From positions 1 to 64,000 of the forward strand of contig JAJTFK010000004.1 in NCBI GenBank assembly GCA_021298655.1: DNA of 64,000 nt, given 5' to 3'. Positions within the stretch are counted from its first letter, which is position 1. Each line of letters starts with the position of its first letter. The DNA is from Cryomorphaceae bacterium (lineage in GTDB: Bacteria > Bacteroidota > Bacteroidia > Flavobacteriales > Schleiferiaceae). A program made the position numbers and the translations under genes. Of this stretch, positions 19,121-28,543 are shown piece after piece. The notes beneath the pieces were generated by a model, which had not been told where the DNA came from, made no database searches, and saw only the letters and a list, made by a program, of their open reading frames with translations.

Positions 19121-19128
19121 TACTTTTG
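19121..19128 (+). promoter_or_regulatory. -7 box of the cytochrome/YceI/DUF5777 operon
   Basis: Perfect TACTTTTG, six bases before the ATG at 19135. Confidence 0.6.
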
Positions 19129-19134
19129 GGCATA

Positions 19135-19503
19135 ATGAAAACGTTTTCGGTTATTTTTTCGCTCGCAGCCGCACTAATTCTGGCCTCGGGCTGCTACTAC
19201 GACAACGCGGAACAGCTTTACGGTACGGGCGGATCCTGCGATTCGACGGCCACCTGGACGGTGGATGTCCAGCCCTTGATTCAGGCGCAGTGCGTGGGTT
19301 GCCACCAAGGTGCGGGTGCCAGCGGCGGGTTGGATTTGAGCTCGCACGCCAACGTTCAGTCATCCGCCCTGACGGGCTCGCTCATCGACCGTATTCAGCG
19401 CCCGGCGGGCGATCCCTTAGCCATGCCTCCCAGTGGGCCCCTTTCACCCTGTGCTAAAGCCAAAATCCGTGTCTGGGAGCGGGGAGGCGCCTTACCCAAT
19501 TGA
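19135..19503 (+). CDS. Monoheme c-type cytochrome-like lipoprotein
   Basis: 122 residues. Signal with lipobox (ALILASGC, Cys ~20) followed by one c-type heme site CVGCH near residue 61 and a MPP motif (AMPPSGPLS) that could supply the distal Met ligand. The module from CDST onward (VDVQPLIQAQ-CVGCHQG-GL-L) resembles planctomycete-type cytochrome C domains and is clearly homologous to the second half of the diheme lipoprotein three genes downstream. First gene of a four-gene operon with YceI and a DUF5777 protein; expected in the periplasm, lipid-anchored. Confidence 0.75.
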   Translation: MKTFSVIFSLAAALILASGCYYDNAEQLYGTGGSCDSTATWTVDVQPLIQAQCVGCHQGAGASGGLDLSSHANVQSSALTGSLIDRIQRPAGDPLAMPPSGPLSPCAKAKIRVWERGGALPN

Positions 19504-19505
19504 TT

Positions 19506-20045
19506 ATGAAAAAGTCCGCCCTGTTTCTGGCCCTGACGCTCGCCGTTTCGGCGTCGGCCCAAAAGCTCACCAGCAAGGATACCTACGTGCACCTCAACGC
19601 ATCTACGCCCGTTGAGGACATTGATGCGGTGCTGACCAACGCGGTGGGAATCCTGAATACCGAAACCAACGAGGCGGTTTGGCAGCTCCAAATTCAGTCG
19701 TTTACGTTCAAGCGCGCCCTGATGCAGGAGCACTTCAACGAGAACTACATGGAATCCGAAACCTACCCCAAAGCGACCCTAAAGGCCAAGATTGAGGGCG
19801 TCAAGGATTGGAAGAAGCCCGCGACCTACAAGGGCGGCATCAAGGGAAGCATGGAAATCCACGGAGTTGCCAAGGACATGTCCATTCCCGTTACCATTAC
19901 CGTGAACAAAGACGGAAGCGTGACCATCGAAAGCGAATTTTCGGTGCGCACGGCGGACCACAACATTAAAATCCCAACCATGGTCGTTTCGAAGGTGGCC
20001 GAAGTGGTTAAGGTTACGGTTAAATCCACGCTGAAGGGTGCGTAG
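19506..20045 (+). CDS. YceI family periplasmic protein
   Basis: 179 residues with a signal peptide (KKSALFLALTLAVSASAQ) and a YceI-type beta-barrel domain; recognisable parts are FTFKRALMQEHFNENYMESETYPKA (quoted in two parts here: FTFKRALMQEHF and NYMESETYPKA) and the closing strands of the lipocalin-like fold. YceI proteins bind polyisoprenoids or related hydrophobic molecules. It begins two bases after the stop of the cytochrome lipoprotein and overlaps the start of the DUF5777 gene by eight bases. Confidence 0.85.
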   Translation: MKKSALFLALTLAVSASAQKLTSKDTYVHLNASTPVEDIDAVLTNAVGILNTETNEAVWQLQIQSFTFKRALMQEHFNENYMESETYPKATLKAKIEGVKDWKKPATYKGGIKGSMEIHGVAKDMSIPVTITVNKDGSVTIESEFSVRTADHNIKIPTMVVSKVAEVVKVTVKSTLKGA

Positions 20046-20931
20046 TTTACTGCTGGGGTTCCTCTTCGCTGCAGCGGCTGGTTCAGCCTGGGCTCAGGAC
20101 GATTTGCTTTCGGAGTTGGACGCCTTAGCGCCCCCGGCGCCGAAGCAGTTTGCCTTCGCGACCTTCAAGGGTACCAAGGTGGTCAACGGCGCCACGGTAG
20201 AGATGCCGGGTTCGGGAGTGGGCCAGTTCATTGTGGGCCACCGCTTTGGGGCGCTCAACGACAAGCCCCTGTACAACCTCTTTGGCATGGACGTGGCCCA
20301 GATCCGTTTTGAGTATTCCTACAATCCGGTTTCTTGGCTGAATGTGGGCGCGGGACGCTCATCGGGCAGCAAGACCTACGACGGCTTCACCAAGGTCCGG
20401 TTGCTTCGCCAATCTAAGGGCGGAAGGGGTCTGAACAGCCCCATCACCGCGGTCTGGTATTCCTCGATGACCCTGACCACGGTACCGTTTACCGACGGTT
20501 TTGATCACTTTTTCTCGGACCGATTGGCCTACGCCCACCAGCTGCTTCTTGCGCGCAAAATGGGCGAGAAGATTTCGATTCAGGTGGCGCCGACCCTGGT
20601 GCATTTTAATCTGGTTCCGCTGGCGAGCGACCGAAACGATCAGCTGGGACTTGGCCTGAGTGGGCGCTACAAGCTTACCCAGCGGATGGCCTTGACGGCC
20701 GAAACCATGCTCCGCCAAACGCCCTTTTCGGGTACCCACACGCCCATCAGCATCGGGCTGGACGTAGAGACCGGCGGCCACGTGTTTCAGTTTCACGTGA
20801 CCAACGCCCGCTCGATGGCCGATCCGCAGTGGATGATGCAGACGCCCGGGAGCTGGGCCAAGGGCGACGTGTTTCTCGGATTTAATATTTCCCGTGTGTT
20901 TACCCACGTTAAACCCAAAGAACTGCGATGA
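20038..20931 (+). CDS. DUF5777 family outer-membrane beta-barrel protein
   Basis: 297 residues from a GTG start that overlaps the YceI stop. Signal peptide SLLLGFLFAAAAGSAWAQ, then alternating amphipathic strands with family features FATFKGTKVVNGATVEMPG, FIVGHRFGALN and a YNLFGMDVAQIRFEYSY stretch. DUF5777 proteins are predicted outer-membrane barrels of Bacteroidota with no assigned function. Placement between YceI and heme lipoproteins suggests a role in an extracytoplasmic redox or isoprenoid-linked process. It ends in ATGA shared with the diheme gene. Confidence 0.8.
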   Translation: MRSLLLGFLFAAAAGSAWAQDDLLSELDALAPPAPKQFAFATFKGTKVVNGATVEMPGSGVGQFIVGHRFGALNDKPLYNLFGMDVAQIRFEYSYNPVSWLNVGAGRSSGSKTYDGFTKVRLLRQSKGGRGLNSPITAVWYSSMTLTTVPFTDGFDHFFSDRLAYAHQLLLARKMGEKISIQVAPTLVHFNLVPLASDRNDQLGLGLSGRYKLTQRMALTAETMLRQTPFSGTHTPISIGLDVETGGHVFQFHVTNARSMADPQWMMQTPGSWAKGDVFLGFNISRVFTHVKPKELR

Positions 20932-21584
20932 AAAAGCTTTTTTCGTTGGCCGGAGCAGTGATGCTGGCCGCGTGCACGCACTTGCCCGATGTGCCCGATC
21001 CGACGCCGGAACCCTGCGATCCGGGCATCGTTGATTTTACCAACGAAATCTACCCGATGATTCAGTCCAACTGCGCCATGAGTGGATGCCACGTCGGGCC
21101 CTACCCAGCGGACGGGATAAATCTTTCTACCTACGCCGGAATTCGCGCTGAAGTGAAGCCCGGAGATCCGAACGACAGTGAATTGTATGAGGTGCTGTTT
21201 GAGTCCGGAGACGATTTGATGCCTCCGCCACCCATGGCGCCCCTGAGTGCGGCGCAGAAGGCGCGCATCCGCCTGTGGATTGAACAGGGCGCTAAGGAGA
21301 CCAACTGCGCCGGGGCATGCGATTCCACGGCGGCCACCACGTATGCTGCCGTAATTGCTCCCATGCTCCAAGCCAACTGCGTAGGCTGCCATCAGGGTAC
21401 CAATCCTTCGGGCGGTATTCGGTTAACGACGTATGCGGAAGCCGCCGACGCGGTAGCTACCAAGGGCCTTGTGGACGCCGTACACGGAACCAACGGCCGC
21501 GCGCTCATGCCGCCAGCGGGCCAAATGTCCGACTGCAACGTGGCCCTGCTTGAGCGTTGGGTTCGCGCCGGCATGCCCCAGTAG
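20928..21584 (+). CDS. Diheme c-type cytochrome-like lipoprotein with a CX4CH site
   Basis: 218 residues. Lipobox GAVMLAAC (Cys ~16), then two homologous modules. Module 1 carries CAMSGCH (residues 49-55), an unusual CX4CH heme site, and LMPPPP as possible Met ligand; module 2 (from CDST, ~residue 126) carries the normal CVGCH and LMPPAG. Module 2 closely resembles the monoheme lipoprotein at 19135, so the operon encodes three copies of one domain. Likely periplasmic, lipid-anchored electron carrier; partner unknown. Start overlaps the DUF5777 stop by four bases. Confidence 0.75.
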   Translation: MKKLFSLAGAVMLAACTHLPDVPDPTPEPCDPGIVDFTNEIYPMIQSNCAMSGCHVGPYPADGINLSTYAGIRAEVKPGDPNDSELYEVLFESGDDLMPPPPMAPLSAAQKARIRLWIEQGAKETNCAGACDSTAATTYAAVIAPMLQANCVGCHQGTNPSGGIRLTTYAEAADAVATKGLVDAVHGTNGRALMPPAGQMSDCNVALLERWVRAGMPQ

Positions 21585-21603: not shown

Positions 21604-21635
21604 GGACCCGCCTCGGCGCTGCTCGAGGCGGGTCC
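21604..21635. repeat. 12-bp perfect inverted repeat abutting the lhgO promoter
   Basis: GGACCCGCCTCG (21604-21615) pairs with CGAGGCGGGTCC (21624-21635) across an eight-base loop. It begins 20 bp after the diheme-cytochrome stop and ends one base before the lhgO -7 box. It may be the terminator of the upstream operon (only four T follow) or an operator. Confidence 0.6.
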
Positions 21636-21636
21636 G

Positions 21637-21644
21637 TACTTTTG
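21637..21644 (+). promoter_or_regulatory. -7 box of lhgO
   Basis: Perfect TACTTTTG, six bases before the ATG at 21651. Confidence 0.6.
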
Positions 21645-21650
21645 TGTCCT

Positions 21651-22823
21651 ATGGAACAGTATGATTTCATCGTGGTCGGTGGCGGAATTGTGGGGGCCGC
21701 GGTGTACTACAAGTTGGCTACCGCCCACCCGGAGGCCAAAATCGTTTTGCTGGAGAAGGAGTCCGCTCTGGCGAGCCACCAAACCGGACGCAACAGCGGC
21801 GTGATTCACTCGGGTCTTTACTACAAGCCGGGCTCGCTCAAGGCCCGAACCTGCTTGGACGGCTACCGGCAAATGCTGGACTTCGCCGCCGAACACGGGG
21901 TGAAGCACGACGTTTGCGGCAAAATAGTTGCGGCCGTGGGGCCCGAGGAGGAGGCCCGACTGGAAACCCTGCGGCTCCGGGGCGCCGAAAACGGCTTGGA
22001 CGGACTGCGTTACCTGAGCGATCAGGAGTTGCGCGAACGCGAACCCGAGGCGTCGGCGACCAAAGCCCTGTTGGTGCCCCAAACCGGCATCATTCACTAT
22101 GCCGACGCGGCCGAGGCCATGCTTGCGGCGGGCCGTGGCGCGGTGCGCTTGAACACCCAGGTTACTGGGTTTACCCGCGACGGCGTGCAAACAAGCACGG
22201 GCAGGATTCGCGGCAAGCACGTCCTCGTCTGTGCAGGCCTCCAAAGCGATCGGCTTGCCCGGCTCGACGGGGTGGACGCAGGACTGCGCATCGTGCCGTT
22301 CCGCGGCGACTACTACGAGCTTAGTCCGCGCGCCCAAGCCAAGGTTAGGCACCTGATTTACCCCGTGCCGGATCCGAATTTTCCGTTTTTGGGCGTGCAC
22401 TTCACGCGCATGATTCACGGCGGCGTCGAGTGCGGACCCAATGCCGTGTTCAGTTTTGCGCGCGAGGGCTACACCAAGACGGCCTTTGATGCGGGCGACG
22501 CGGCTGCGGCCCTGAGTTATGCCGGTACCTGGAAGCTGTTCGCCAAGCACTGGCGCTACGGGCTGGGCGAGTACGAGCGGGCCTTCAGCAAGCAAAAATT
22601 CCTTGCCGCGCTGCAGCGGCTGATTCCGAGTTTGCGTCCTGAGGACTTGCAGCCCGGTCGGGCGGGCATCCGTGCCCAGGCACTGCGCCGCGACGGAAGC
22701 CTCGAAGACGATTTCGTGCTCCGCCAGGGCGAACGAGCCTTCCACGTGCTCAATGCGCCCTCGCCCGCCGCAACGGCTTCGCTGGCCATTGCCGACGAAA
22801 TTTTGCGCCAGGCAATACCTTAA
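21651..22823 (+). CDS. lhgO: L-2-hydroxyglutarate oxidase/dehydrogenase
   Basis: 390 residues, FAD-dependent DAO-fold enzyme oxidising L-2-hydroxyglutarate to 2-oxoglutarate and passing electrons to oxygen or the quinone pool. FAD-binding VVGGGIVGAAVYYKL at the N-terminus; the diagnostic SHQTGRNSGVIHSGLYY segment at residues ~45-62; LIYPVPDPNFPFLGVHFTR and the late GIRAQALRRDG near the C-terminus. The TAA stop lies in a TTAA block shared with the convergent deacylase gene. Confidence 0.92.
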   Translation: MEQYDFIVVGGGIVGAAVYYKLATAHPEAKIVLLEKESALASHQTGRNSGVIHSGLYYKPGSLKARTCLDGYRQMLDFAAEHGVKHDVCGKIVAAVGPEEEARLETLRLRGAENGLDGLRYLSDQELREREPEASATKALLVPQTGIIHYADAAEAMLAAGRGAVRLNTQVTGFTRDGVQTSTGRIRGKHVLVCAGLQSDRLARLDGVDAGLRIVPFRGDYYELSPRAQAKVRHLIYPVPDPNFPFLGVHFTRMIHGGVECGPNAVFSFAREGYTKTAFDAGDAAAALSYAGTWKLFAKHWRYGLGEYERAFSKQKFLAALQRLIPSLRPEDLQPGRAGIRAQALRRDGSLEDDFVLRQGERAFHVLNAPSPAATASLAIADEILRQAIP

Positions 22824-26401: not shown

Positions 26402-27175
26402 ATGAAAAATGCTTGGTTCGCCGTATGCGTTGCGGCTCTTGGTTTCGCGGGTTGCGAGGCGACGTTTGTGGAGCCCGATCCCGCCCGCGATCAGCGCAAC
26501 ATCGTGCTGCGCCACTTTTACTACTTCAAGGGCGATTTAATCGACACCAACAAGGTTTTTGCCCTGGACGGTTCGGGTACCCAAATTCGGTTTAAAAACA
26601 TCGAAATGGCCATGGGTTTTTACCATTTTGAAAACCACCTGGGCGACACCATTTACCCCGTAAAGGGCGATACCACCGAGTTTTCGGTGACCTCAACCTC
26701 TTCGCTGTACGACGCGTTCACCCGAATCTATGAGCTACCGTCGGGAACCTATTCGGGCCGTCACTGGTGGCGAATCGGGCTGGACAGCGCCCAAAATGCG
26801 GTGCCCACGACCTCGTGGTCGCCCGAAAGTCCGATGAACCGCTTGGTGCGCCCCAACGGCGGCTACAACGCCGTGGTCATCGAAGGTTGGTGGAAGTCGC
26901 CGACCGATACCACGCAGGATAAGCCCTACAAGCCGTTTAAGTACACGATTAGTTCGGCGGCCTTTAACGAACTGCTCGAGTACCAGTCCCAGTTCACGGT
27001 GCGCAAGGGCCGCGACGTCAACGTGAACATTGTGTTCAAGGCCAACTTGCTGCTCGAAAACGTCGACCCCGCTTTGGTGGACCAAATCGATATTGATCCG
27101 AGCAATCCGCTGTTTTACCCGCTGCTTCCATCGTTTAGGCTGAACCTGTTGAAGGCCTACCAGATTCAGCTCTAG
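26402..27175 (+). CDS. MbnP-like lipoprotein
   Basis: 257 residues with a lipobox (AALGFAGC, Cys ~19). The mature part reads like the MbnP family: early IVLRHFYYFKGDLID, IRFKNIEMAMGFYHF, a GTYSGRHWWRIGLDSAQN segment around residue 120 and a Trp-rich NGGYNAVVIEGWW turn. Some MbnP proteins bind copper through a kynurenine-modified Trp made by the diheme enzyme MbnH; no MbnH is adjacent. Assignment rests on pattern memory rather than a search, so an unrelated beta-sandwich lipoprotein is possible. Confidence 0.55.
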   Translation: MKNAWFAVCVAALGFAGCEATFVEPDPARDQRNIVLRHFYYFKGDLIDTNKVFALDGSGTQIRFKNIEMAMGFYHFENHLGDTIYPVKGDTTEFSVTSTSSLYDAFTRIYELPSGTYSGRHWWRIGLDSAQNAVPTTSWSPESPMNRLVRPNGGYNAVVIEGWWKSPTDTTQDKPYKPFKYTISSAAFNELLEYQSQFTVRKGRDVNVNIVFKANLLLENVDPALVDQIDIDPSNPLFYPLLPSFRLNLLKAYQIQL

Positions 27176-27181
27176 GGTCCA

Positions 27182-28543
27182 ATGAACGTACATTTTATTG
27201 CCGTCGGCGGAAGTGCGATGCACAGCCTTGCGCTGGCGTTGGCGACCCGCGAGGGGGTGCGCGTAACCGGAAGCGACGACGCCATTTTTGAACCGAGCCG
27301 CAGCCGGCTTCTGGCAGCAGGCTTGCTTCCCGACCAAGAAGGCTGGTTCCCGGAGCGCATTCACGCCGGGCTCGACGCGGTCGTCCTCGGCATGCACGCC
27401 CGCGCCGACAATCCGGAGTTGCTCCGCGCTCAGGAGCTCGGCTTGCCCGTGTATTCCTACCCCGAATACGTTCAAAAGGCCTGTGAGCGCCAGACCCGCG
27501 TGGTCGTGGGGGGCTCGCACGGAAAAACCACGACCACGTCGATGCTGCTGCACGTACTGAAGTACTGGGATCGCTTGCCGGATTACTTAGTGGGTGCGCA
27601 GGTTCCGGGGCTTGACGCCTCGGTTCGCCTTCGCGGAATCGACGATTGGGCGGTGTTTGAAGGCGACGAATACCTGGCGTCGCCCCTGGATCCGCGTCCG
27701 AAGTTTCACCTATACAAGGCCCATGTCGGCTTGATTACGGGCATGGCCTGGGATCACGTCAACGTGTTCCCGACCCAAGAGGCTTATGCCGACGCGTTTC
27801 GCGGATTTTTGGCGTCGATGGAACCGGGCGGCACCCTGCTCTACTTTGAGGAAGACGCCGAGTTGGCGGCCCTGGTCGCCGCCGACACGTCGCCGATCCG
27901 CAAGATTCCCTACCGCACCCCGGACCACCGCCACGAAGGCATGCAGTGGTATTGGAAGACGCCCATGGGCGAACTTCCCATGAGCGTGATGGGGCGGCAC
28001 AACCTCGCCAACGCCGAGGGCGCGCGCTGGCTGGCTCAGGAAATGGGTATTCAGGAAGCGGACTTTTACGAGGCCATCGCCTCGTTTCAGGGTGCACAGC
28101 GCCGCTTGGAGCCTTTAGCGGATTCGCCGCGTCGAGCGGCCTACTTGGATTTTGCTCATGCGCCCTCCAAGGTAGCTGCGACCACGGCAGCGTTTGCCGA
28201 GAGCTTTGGCAACCGTCCCGTCTGGGGGTTGCTCGAGCTCCATACGTTCAGCAGCTTGAATCCGGACTTTTTGCCGGGGTACGCCGGTTCCTTAGATGGT
28301 CTGGACCGAGCCATGGTGCTATTTGATCCCGCTGCGGTGGCCCACAAAAAACTACCGCCCCTGGCCCCGGAAGCGGTTCAGGCTGCCTTTGGACCGCGTG
28401 TCGAAGTATACACCGACGCAGCGGAACTTCGTGCGGTTTTGGAACGCGATGCCCCCGATGAGCTCAATCTGCTCATCATGAGTTCCGGCAACCTGGGTGG
28501 ATGGGATGTGCGCCAGTGGGCGCCGACGTTCGTTTCGAACTAA
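27182..28543 (+). CDS. mpl: UDP-N-acetylmuramate:tripeptide ligase-like (Mpl-type Mur ligase)
   Basis: 453 residues, Mur ligase fold. N-terminal Rossmann domain begins MNVHFIAVGGSAMHSLAL; the ATP P-loop is GGSHGKTTTT near residue 111; EGDEYLASPLDPRPKF and the HNLANAEGA segment follow, then the C-terminal ligase domain. Mpl enzymes recycle the murein tripeptide by joining it to UDP-MurNAc. Early GMHARADNPEL is typical of the Mpl branch rather than MurC. Its stop shares CTAA with the convergent STAS-like gene. Confidence 0.85.
   Translation: MNVHFIAVGGSAMHSLALALATREGVRVTGSDDAIFEPSRSRLLAAGLLPDQEGWFPERIHAGLDAVVLGMHARADNPELLRAQELGLPVYSYPEYVQKACERQTRVVVGGSHGKTTTTSMLLHVLKYWDRLPDYLVGAQVPGLDASVRLRGIDDWAVFEGDEYLASPLDPRPKFHLYKAHVGLITGMAWDHVNVFPTQEAYADAFRGFLASMEPGGTLLYFEEDAELAALVAADTSPIRKIPYRTPDHRHEGMQWYWKTPMGELPMSVMGRHNLANAEGARWLAQEMGIQEADFYEAIASFQGAQRRLEPLADSPRRAAYLDFAHAPSKVAATTAAFAESFGNRPVWGLLELHTFSSLNPDFLPGYAGSLDGLDRAMVLFDPAAVAHKKLPPLAPEAVQAAFGPRVEVYTDAAELRAVLERDAPDELNLLIMSSGNLGGWDVRQWAPTFVSN

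Follow-up and report, generated by a model that had tools for sequence, protein, structure and literature searches.

A four-gene operon of a small Bacteroidota genome encodes lipid-anchored one-electron carriers, a YceI lipocalin and a small DUF5777 barrel. The protein families are all known, but their combination is undescribed in the literature we searched. The association of the three recurs across the phylum, and in some lineages the monohaem cytochrome gives way to a lipidated Rieske protein. We tentatively read the operon as a high-potential outer-membrane module whose carriers trade electrons one by one with a lipophilic molecule bound to YceI, perhaps as a repair system for lipid radicals.

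Results

A predicted four-gene transcription unit

The window is the whole stretch analysed, 64,000 nucleotides from a Bacteroidota genome (1.6 Mb, 97% complete) whose closest named relatives are Cryomorphaceae/Schleiferiaceae MAGs. Four genes, encoding c1, YceI, DUF5777 and c2, lie head to tail in that order on the + strand (Table 1), flanked by an Atg22-like MFS gene and an L-2-hydroxyglutarate oxidase gene. The original prediction placed a single promoter box ahead of four abutting or overlapping genes, and the junctions agree: c1 and YceI are separated by 2 nt, YceI and DUF5777 overlap by 8 nt, and DUF5777 and c2 overlap by 4 nt. Between the box at 19121 and position 21637, the + strand holds no other TAnnTTTG. 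The next + strand box, at 21637, is the downstream oxidase gene's own, and a hairpin with a perfect stem lies 3' of c2, ending just upstream of it. Judged by sequence, the four genes are a well-bounded transcription unit.

Table 1 Features of the operon, in window coordinates
Feature	Position	Strand	Basis
Bacteroidota -7 promoter box TACTTTTG	19121..19128	+	Direct sequence; 6 nt upstream of c1 start codon
c1, monohaem c-type cytochrome lipoprotein	19135..19503	+	Lipobox LASGC; CVGCH 19291-19305; distal Met97
YceI lipocalin, type I signal peptide, divergent MQEHFNENYMES subfamily	19506..20045	+	PF04264 48.3 bits (cut-off 23.7)
DUF5777, predicted 12-stranded outer-membrane beta-barrel	20038..20931	+	PF19089 254.8 bits; GTG start
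c2, dihaem c-type cytochrome lipoprotein	20928..21584	+	Lipobox LAAC; 2 x PSCyt1
c2 haem motif CAMSGCH	21072-21092	+	
c2 haem motif CVGCH	21378-21392	+	
Terminator-like 12-bp hairpin GGACCCGCCTCG/CGAGGCGGGTCC	21604..21635	+	-30.8 kcal/mol, z -6.8

The c1 transcript is predicted to be leaderless or near-leaderless. The pattern TANNTTTG-N6-ATG was observed four times in the window against 0.15 expected, and TAnnTTTG boxes stand at 19121, 21637, 34190 and 56334. Genome-wide, 170 such boxes precede an ATG by 4-8 nt compared with 22 for the reversed pattern, so many genes of this genome appear to be leaderless or nearly so.

Two features beyond the operon deserve mention. The L-2-hydroxyglutarate oxidase gene (21651-22823) lies directly downstream, and the same pair, DUF5777 and then the oxidase, recurs at about 20 loci. 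Most of these belong to the same genus and some to other families, and the pairing hints that the module may be connected with quinone-reducing oxidation of 2-hydroxyglutarate. An MbnP-like lipoprotein is encoded at 26402-27175 (PF20243, 20.9 bits, below the cut-off of 27). The gene at 27182 starts like a UDP-N-acetylmuramate ligase, so an MbnH-type dihaem enzyme does not follow the MbnP-like gene.

Cytochrome, YceI and DUF5777 genes cluster across the phylum

We read DUF5777 loci from a genome search (112 copies) and from named genomes (78). Since the named set comprises the top 80 of at least 581 loci and neighbouring genes were called mechanically as the longest open frames, the percentages given here are estimates. 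Counts were taken over 171 loci with enough flank, within four genes of DUF5777, against a background of 1325 distal genes. A PSCyt1-type cytochrome was present in 139 of the 171 loci (81%) versus 4 of the distal genes (0.3%), and YceI in 135 (79%) versus 3 (0.2%), an enrichment of several hundred-fold for each. Both neighbours were found in 113 loci, and a few loci had neither a carrier nor YceI. The proposed association of YceI, DUF5777 and cytochrome is thereby borne out across Bacteroidota.

Chance clustering of common families is ruled out by the distal-gene background and by the counts in the operon's own genome, where PSCyt1 matches are confined to the three domains of c1 and c2, DUF5777 is single-copy and YceI genes number three. 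The gene set also occurs in Flavobacteriales, Chitinophagales, Cytophagales, Bacteroidales and further Bacteroidota classes; culturable bacteria that carry it include Dyadobacter fermentans and a Hymenobacter strain (loci L238, L219). DUF5777 itself is present in 20 of 21 genomes of the same genus, 34 of 40 relatives and 157 of the 392 genomes in a phylum-wide sample (~40%), and it is retained in nearly all of the host's streamlined 1.6-Mb relatives. Within the genus, c1, YceI and DUF5777 are nearly constant, and c2 is missing from about half of the genomes. Most often the order runs dihaem, monohaem, YceI, DUF5777. In this operon the dihaem gene is instead the final one, a position that gene-order comparison marks as lineage-specific.

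Three homologous haem domains with an ancient split

The PSCyt1 profile (PF07635) matches c2 at 44.7 bits and c1 at 21.5 bits, slightly below the cut-off of 22. Identity is 42% between c1 and the C-terminal half of c2 (E 3e-24), 32% between c1 and the N-terminal half (E 4e-15) and 36% between the two halves (E 5e-11); by these alignments the three haem domains are homologous. All of them combine CXXCH or CX4CH with MPP. The CDST, CxxCH and MPP motifs originally described as common to all three are indeed shared by c1 and the C-terminal half of c2 (CDST, CVGCH, MPP), but the N-terminal half has CDPG and CAMSGCH (CX4CH) and keeps only MPP. The companion claim placed the copies of one triplicated domain on either side of YceI and the barrel. 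It is right about homology; the split, however, is old, and dihaem and monohaem genes are normally adjacent. Across the phylum the N-terminal domain forms its own clade (39/40, support 0.92) and carries CX4CH in 55 of 55 proteins, so the domain split is ancient. The same two results rule out a recent triplication in this lineage. The domain tree does not separate c1 from the C-terminal domain of c2.

Both cytochromes carry a lipobox. Among 124 c1 relatives the lipidated C20, the CXXCH motif and W114 are conserved in 100% and M97 in 98%. The presence of CcmF-like and CcmC-like cytochrome c maturation genes in the genome makes haem attachment to c1 and c2 plausible. The dihaem lipoprotein family starts CKH[E/D]P at the lipidated cysteine, with His at +3 in 94% of members; this residue is perhaps a haem ligand or a barrel contact. 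The mature c1 N-terminus reads CYYDNEEELYP and its family is acid-rich (1.92 vs 1.17 D/E at +2..+7, p 6e-8); we found no such enrichment behind the lipidated cysteine in the c2 family (p 0.53). The acidic residues of the c1 family fall at +4 and +6..+8, off the canonical positions of the LES, the Bacteroidota surface lipoprotein export signal (PMC5080379).

A Rieske protein can take the place of c1

A Rieske [2Fe-2S] protein is a neighbour of DUF5777 in 11 loci, which spread over about four clades. None of these 11 encodes a monohaem c1-type protein, compared with 124 of 154 other loci; one locus excluded from the counts for its short flanks (L249) seems to hold both. On the DUF5777 tree the swap amounts to about four changes, and a tree-aware sign test, with too few pairs (five), is not significant (p 0.25). 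Each Rieske protein begins with a Tat-like or similar signal followed by a lipobox. Together with the mutual exclusion, this suggests that the constant need of the module is for one lipidated one-electron carrier. The strongest mechanistic clue is that a single slot is filled by two unrelated lipid-anchored one-electron proteins. Class-I His/Met cytochromes c and Rieske proteins both normally have high potentials, and the carriers of the module look high-potential. If the module is as it appears, the swap also offers a handle: function should survive an exchange of cytochrome and Rieske.

Predicted folds of DUF5777 and YceI

The PF19089 match covers profile positions 1-247 of 247, and Pfam assigns only DUF5777 to this protein. 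A model built from 78 natural sequences (pLDDT 93.6) has 12 strands and scores Z 16-17.6 against 12-stranded outer-membrane barrels such as KdgM, NanC and FapF; FadL-type hydrophobic channels align at Z ~12, below these. The strands alternate hydrophobic and polar faces and the C-terminal F288 is invariant. The model thus agrees with the earlier prediction of an outer-membrane barrel, and we confidently predict 12 strands around a charged lumen. Strand parity was used to assign residues to faces: R90, D115, K119, K174, R210, E222, D242 and E244 are near-invariant charges of the polar face, and H68, H189 and H248 are conserved with opposite parity, close to strand ends. DUF5777 contains no haem motif, and a PDB profile search with its alignment returned no match. 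MtrB-like chains are absent among the fold matches listed, which does not exclude homology. By general geometry, 12 strands leave too little room for a cytochrome inside the barrel, which makes an Mtr-like wire unlikely.

The YceI model (pLDDT 92.8) matches solved YceI structures at Z 14-19.6, among them the polyisoprenoid-binding structures 2x32/2x34 at Z 19. The predicted fold is the one known for isoprenoid or quinone binding, in line with the hydrophobic-ligand-binding type of protein suggested originally, and YceI proteins do bind polyisoprenoids (PMC9113575). A menaquinone-like molecule is a possible ligand; we infer that a high-potential carrier could oxidise menaquinol but not easily reduce menaquinone.

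Accessory partners and regulators

Regulators adjoining DUF5777 loci include ECF sigma factors (~13), LytTR (5) and Crp-type (3) proteins, and two-component genes lie next to some copies, fitting a stress- or redox-controlled unit. A PF12869 OB-fold protein occurs 53 times among the scanned neighbours. A haem-copper oxidase was found in 80 of 80 DUF5777 genomes tested, and none of the 157 DUF5777 genomes in the phylum-wide sample is among the 16 that lack such an oxidase. This fits an aerobic role, although the link is weak because 376 of the 392 sampled genomes (96%) have such an oxidase.

Seven clusters without YceI (L044, L158, L165, L169, L172, L173 and L175) keep cytochrome c and stand with 4Fe-4S ferredoxin, NrfD, EB_dh haem-b or hexahaem proteins; together these may form a quinone-linked redox complex that has not been described. 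As this group retains cytochrome and DUF5777, carrier and barrel would be the core of the module and YceI its usual, not its sole, partner. YceI is thus missing from part of the modules, and a respiratory role may apply to some of them. At L218, L238, L141 and L173 the module adjoins RND metal efflux genes (CzcA/CusA-like, CusB with a heavy-metal-binding domain), a possible copper connection. Flavobacterial loci (L036, L119, L125, L131, L138, L113, L120 and L126) have an extra DOMON or plastocyanin-like protein that ends in a sorting tail for type IX secretion, and they also encode an ankyrin protein.

Discussion

A tentative mechanism and its alternatives

In our preferred reading, the narrow DUF5777 barrel would sit in the outer membrane as a dock or anchor. 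c1, with c2 where present, would act as lipid-anchored class-I cytochromes connecting DUF5777 to the pool of cytochrome c in the periplasm. YceI would be a periplasmic lipocalin carrying a lipophilic redox-active ligand, with which the cytochromes would exchange single electrons, presumably within a complex. By analogy with LcoA-BcnA of Burkholderia, electrons would most likely travel outwards to the outer membrane and quench radicals derived from its lipids or other lipids there.

The same parts could run the other way. Class-I His/Met cytochromes and Rieske proteins are natural electron acceptors, and they might oxidise a hydrophobic or surface substrate, such as the YceI ligand, copper(I), Fe(II) or a reduced lipid, and feed the periplasmic cytochrome pool and a terminal oxidase. 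The haem-copper oxidase in every DUF5777 genome tested agrees with this, as do CusBA-type RND efflux or plastocyanin-like T9SS proteins at some loci, but no oxidase or dehydrogenase enzyme is constant in the cluster and metal genes stand beside few loci only; we consider inward oxidation rather unlikely. Passage of electrons to or from extracellular partners through DUF5777 and c1, perhaps surface-exposed, is unlikely. It would account for an outer-membrane barrel encoded together with lipoprotein cytochromes and for T9SS-exported DOMON or plastocyanin-like proteins at some loci, and the acid-rich c1 N-terminus faintly resembles known surface-export signals (PMC5080379). Those acidic residues are nevertheless off the canonical signal positions, the usual cluster has no multihaem protein and the cytochrome can be replaced by Rieske. 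Nor, as a matter of geometry, does a cytochrome fit inside a 12-stranded barrel.

We regard as distinctly unlikely a role in lipid or isoprenoid trafficking, in which YceI and DUF5777 would ferry a hydrophobic molecule towards the outer membrane or away from it, with the cytochromes only sensing or modifying this cargo. Polyisoprenoid binding by YceI proteins (PMC9113575) and the Z ~12 alignment with FadL-type channels speak for it. The electron carrier, however, is as constant as YceI and is retained where YceI is lost, and the FadL-like matches rank under other 12-stranded barrels. That these are adjacent envelope genes with independent functions is highly improbable: unrelated genes can share operons, but here the order is conserved across classes, the genes overlap by 8 and 4 nt, and enrichment over distal genes is several hundred-fold.

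A more speculative extension, to which we give little credence, is that the conserved acid-rich N-terminal linker of c1 threads the DUF5777 barrel, whose lumen has near-invariant basic residues at R90, K119, K174 and R210. The carrier would thereby be held on the outer membrane or across it, and electrons could get to the cell surface or the lipid ligand with no multihaem wire. If so, DUF5777 and one lipidated carrier would make a new kind of minimal outer-membrane electron-transfer device. Returning to the exchange of single electrons with a YceI ligand, a module that is as it appears would be a common Bacteroidota outer-membrane redox system outside the respiratory chain, and possibly the answer of this phylum to lipid peroxidation.

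Comparison with known systems

The original prediction of a redox operon lacking a defined function agrees with the literature: our searches on DUF5777 and on YceI in Bacteroidota found no functional study of this cluster and no paper naming DUF5777. The nearest counterpart is the LcoA-BcnA pair of Burkholderia, a cytochrome b561 and a YceI lipocalin for which lipid-peroxyl detoxification has been proposed (PMC9113575). Both systems genetically tie a YceI lipocalin of the isoprenoid- or quinone-holding type to a dedicated cytochrome, but in this operon the lipocalin goes with a predicted outer-membrane barrel and with lipid-anchored cytochromes of the c type (or Rieske), and cytochrome b561 is absent. 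Cbp2D of Cellvibrio likewise couples a YceI-type domain, X158, with c-type cytochrome domains (PMC8981238); it differs as a secreted single polypeptide with a cellulose-binding module and no barrel.

The porin-cytochrome analogy of the original prediction found no support. MtrCAB/Pcc systems also co-encode an outer-membrane barrel and haem proteins, but DUF5777 is predicted to have 12 strands in place of a large barrel, the operon lacks a multihaem cytochrome, its carriers look high-potential and the protein families are different. Barrel size and the presence of only one or two haem motifs per cytochrome place the operon outside the Mtr-type conduits. The monohaem porin Cyc2 similarly pairs one haem with one outer-membrane barrel, yet its haem domain is fused to a larger barrel; here c1 and DUF5777 are separate genes of other families. 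Because the operon lacks defining features of both LcoA-BcnA and the porin-cytochrome conduits, we set it apart from each and regard it as a variant, so far undescribed in the literature searched, of the YceI-cytochrome redox systems.
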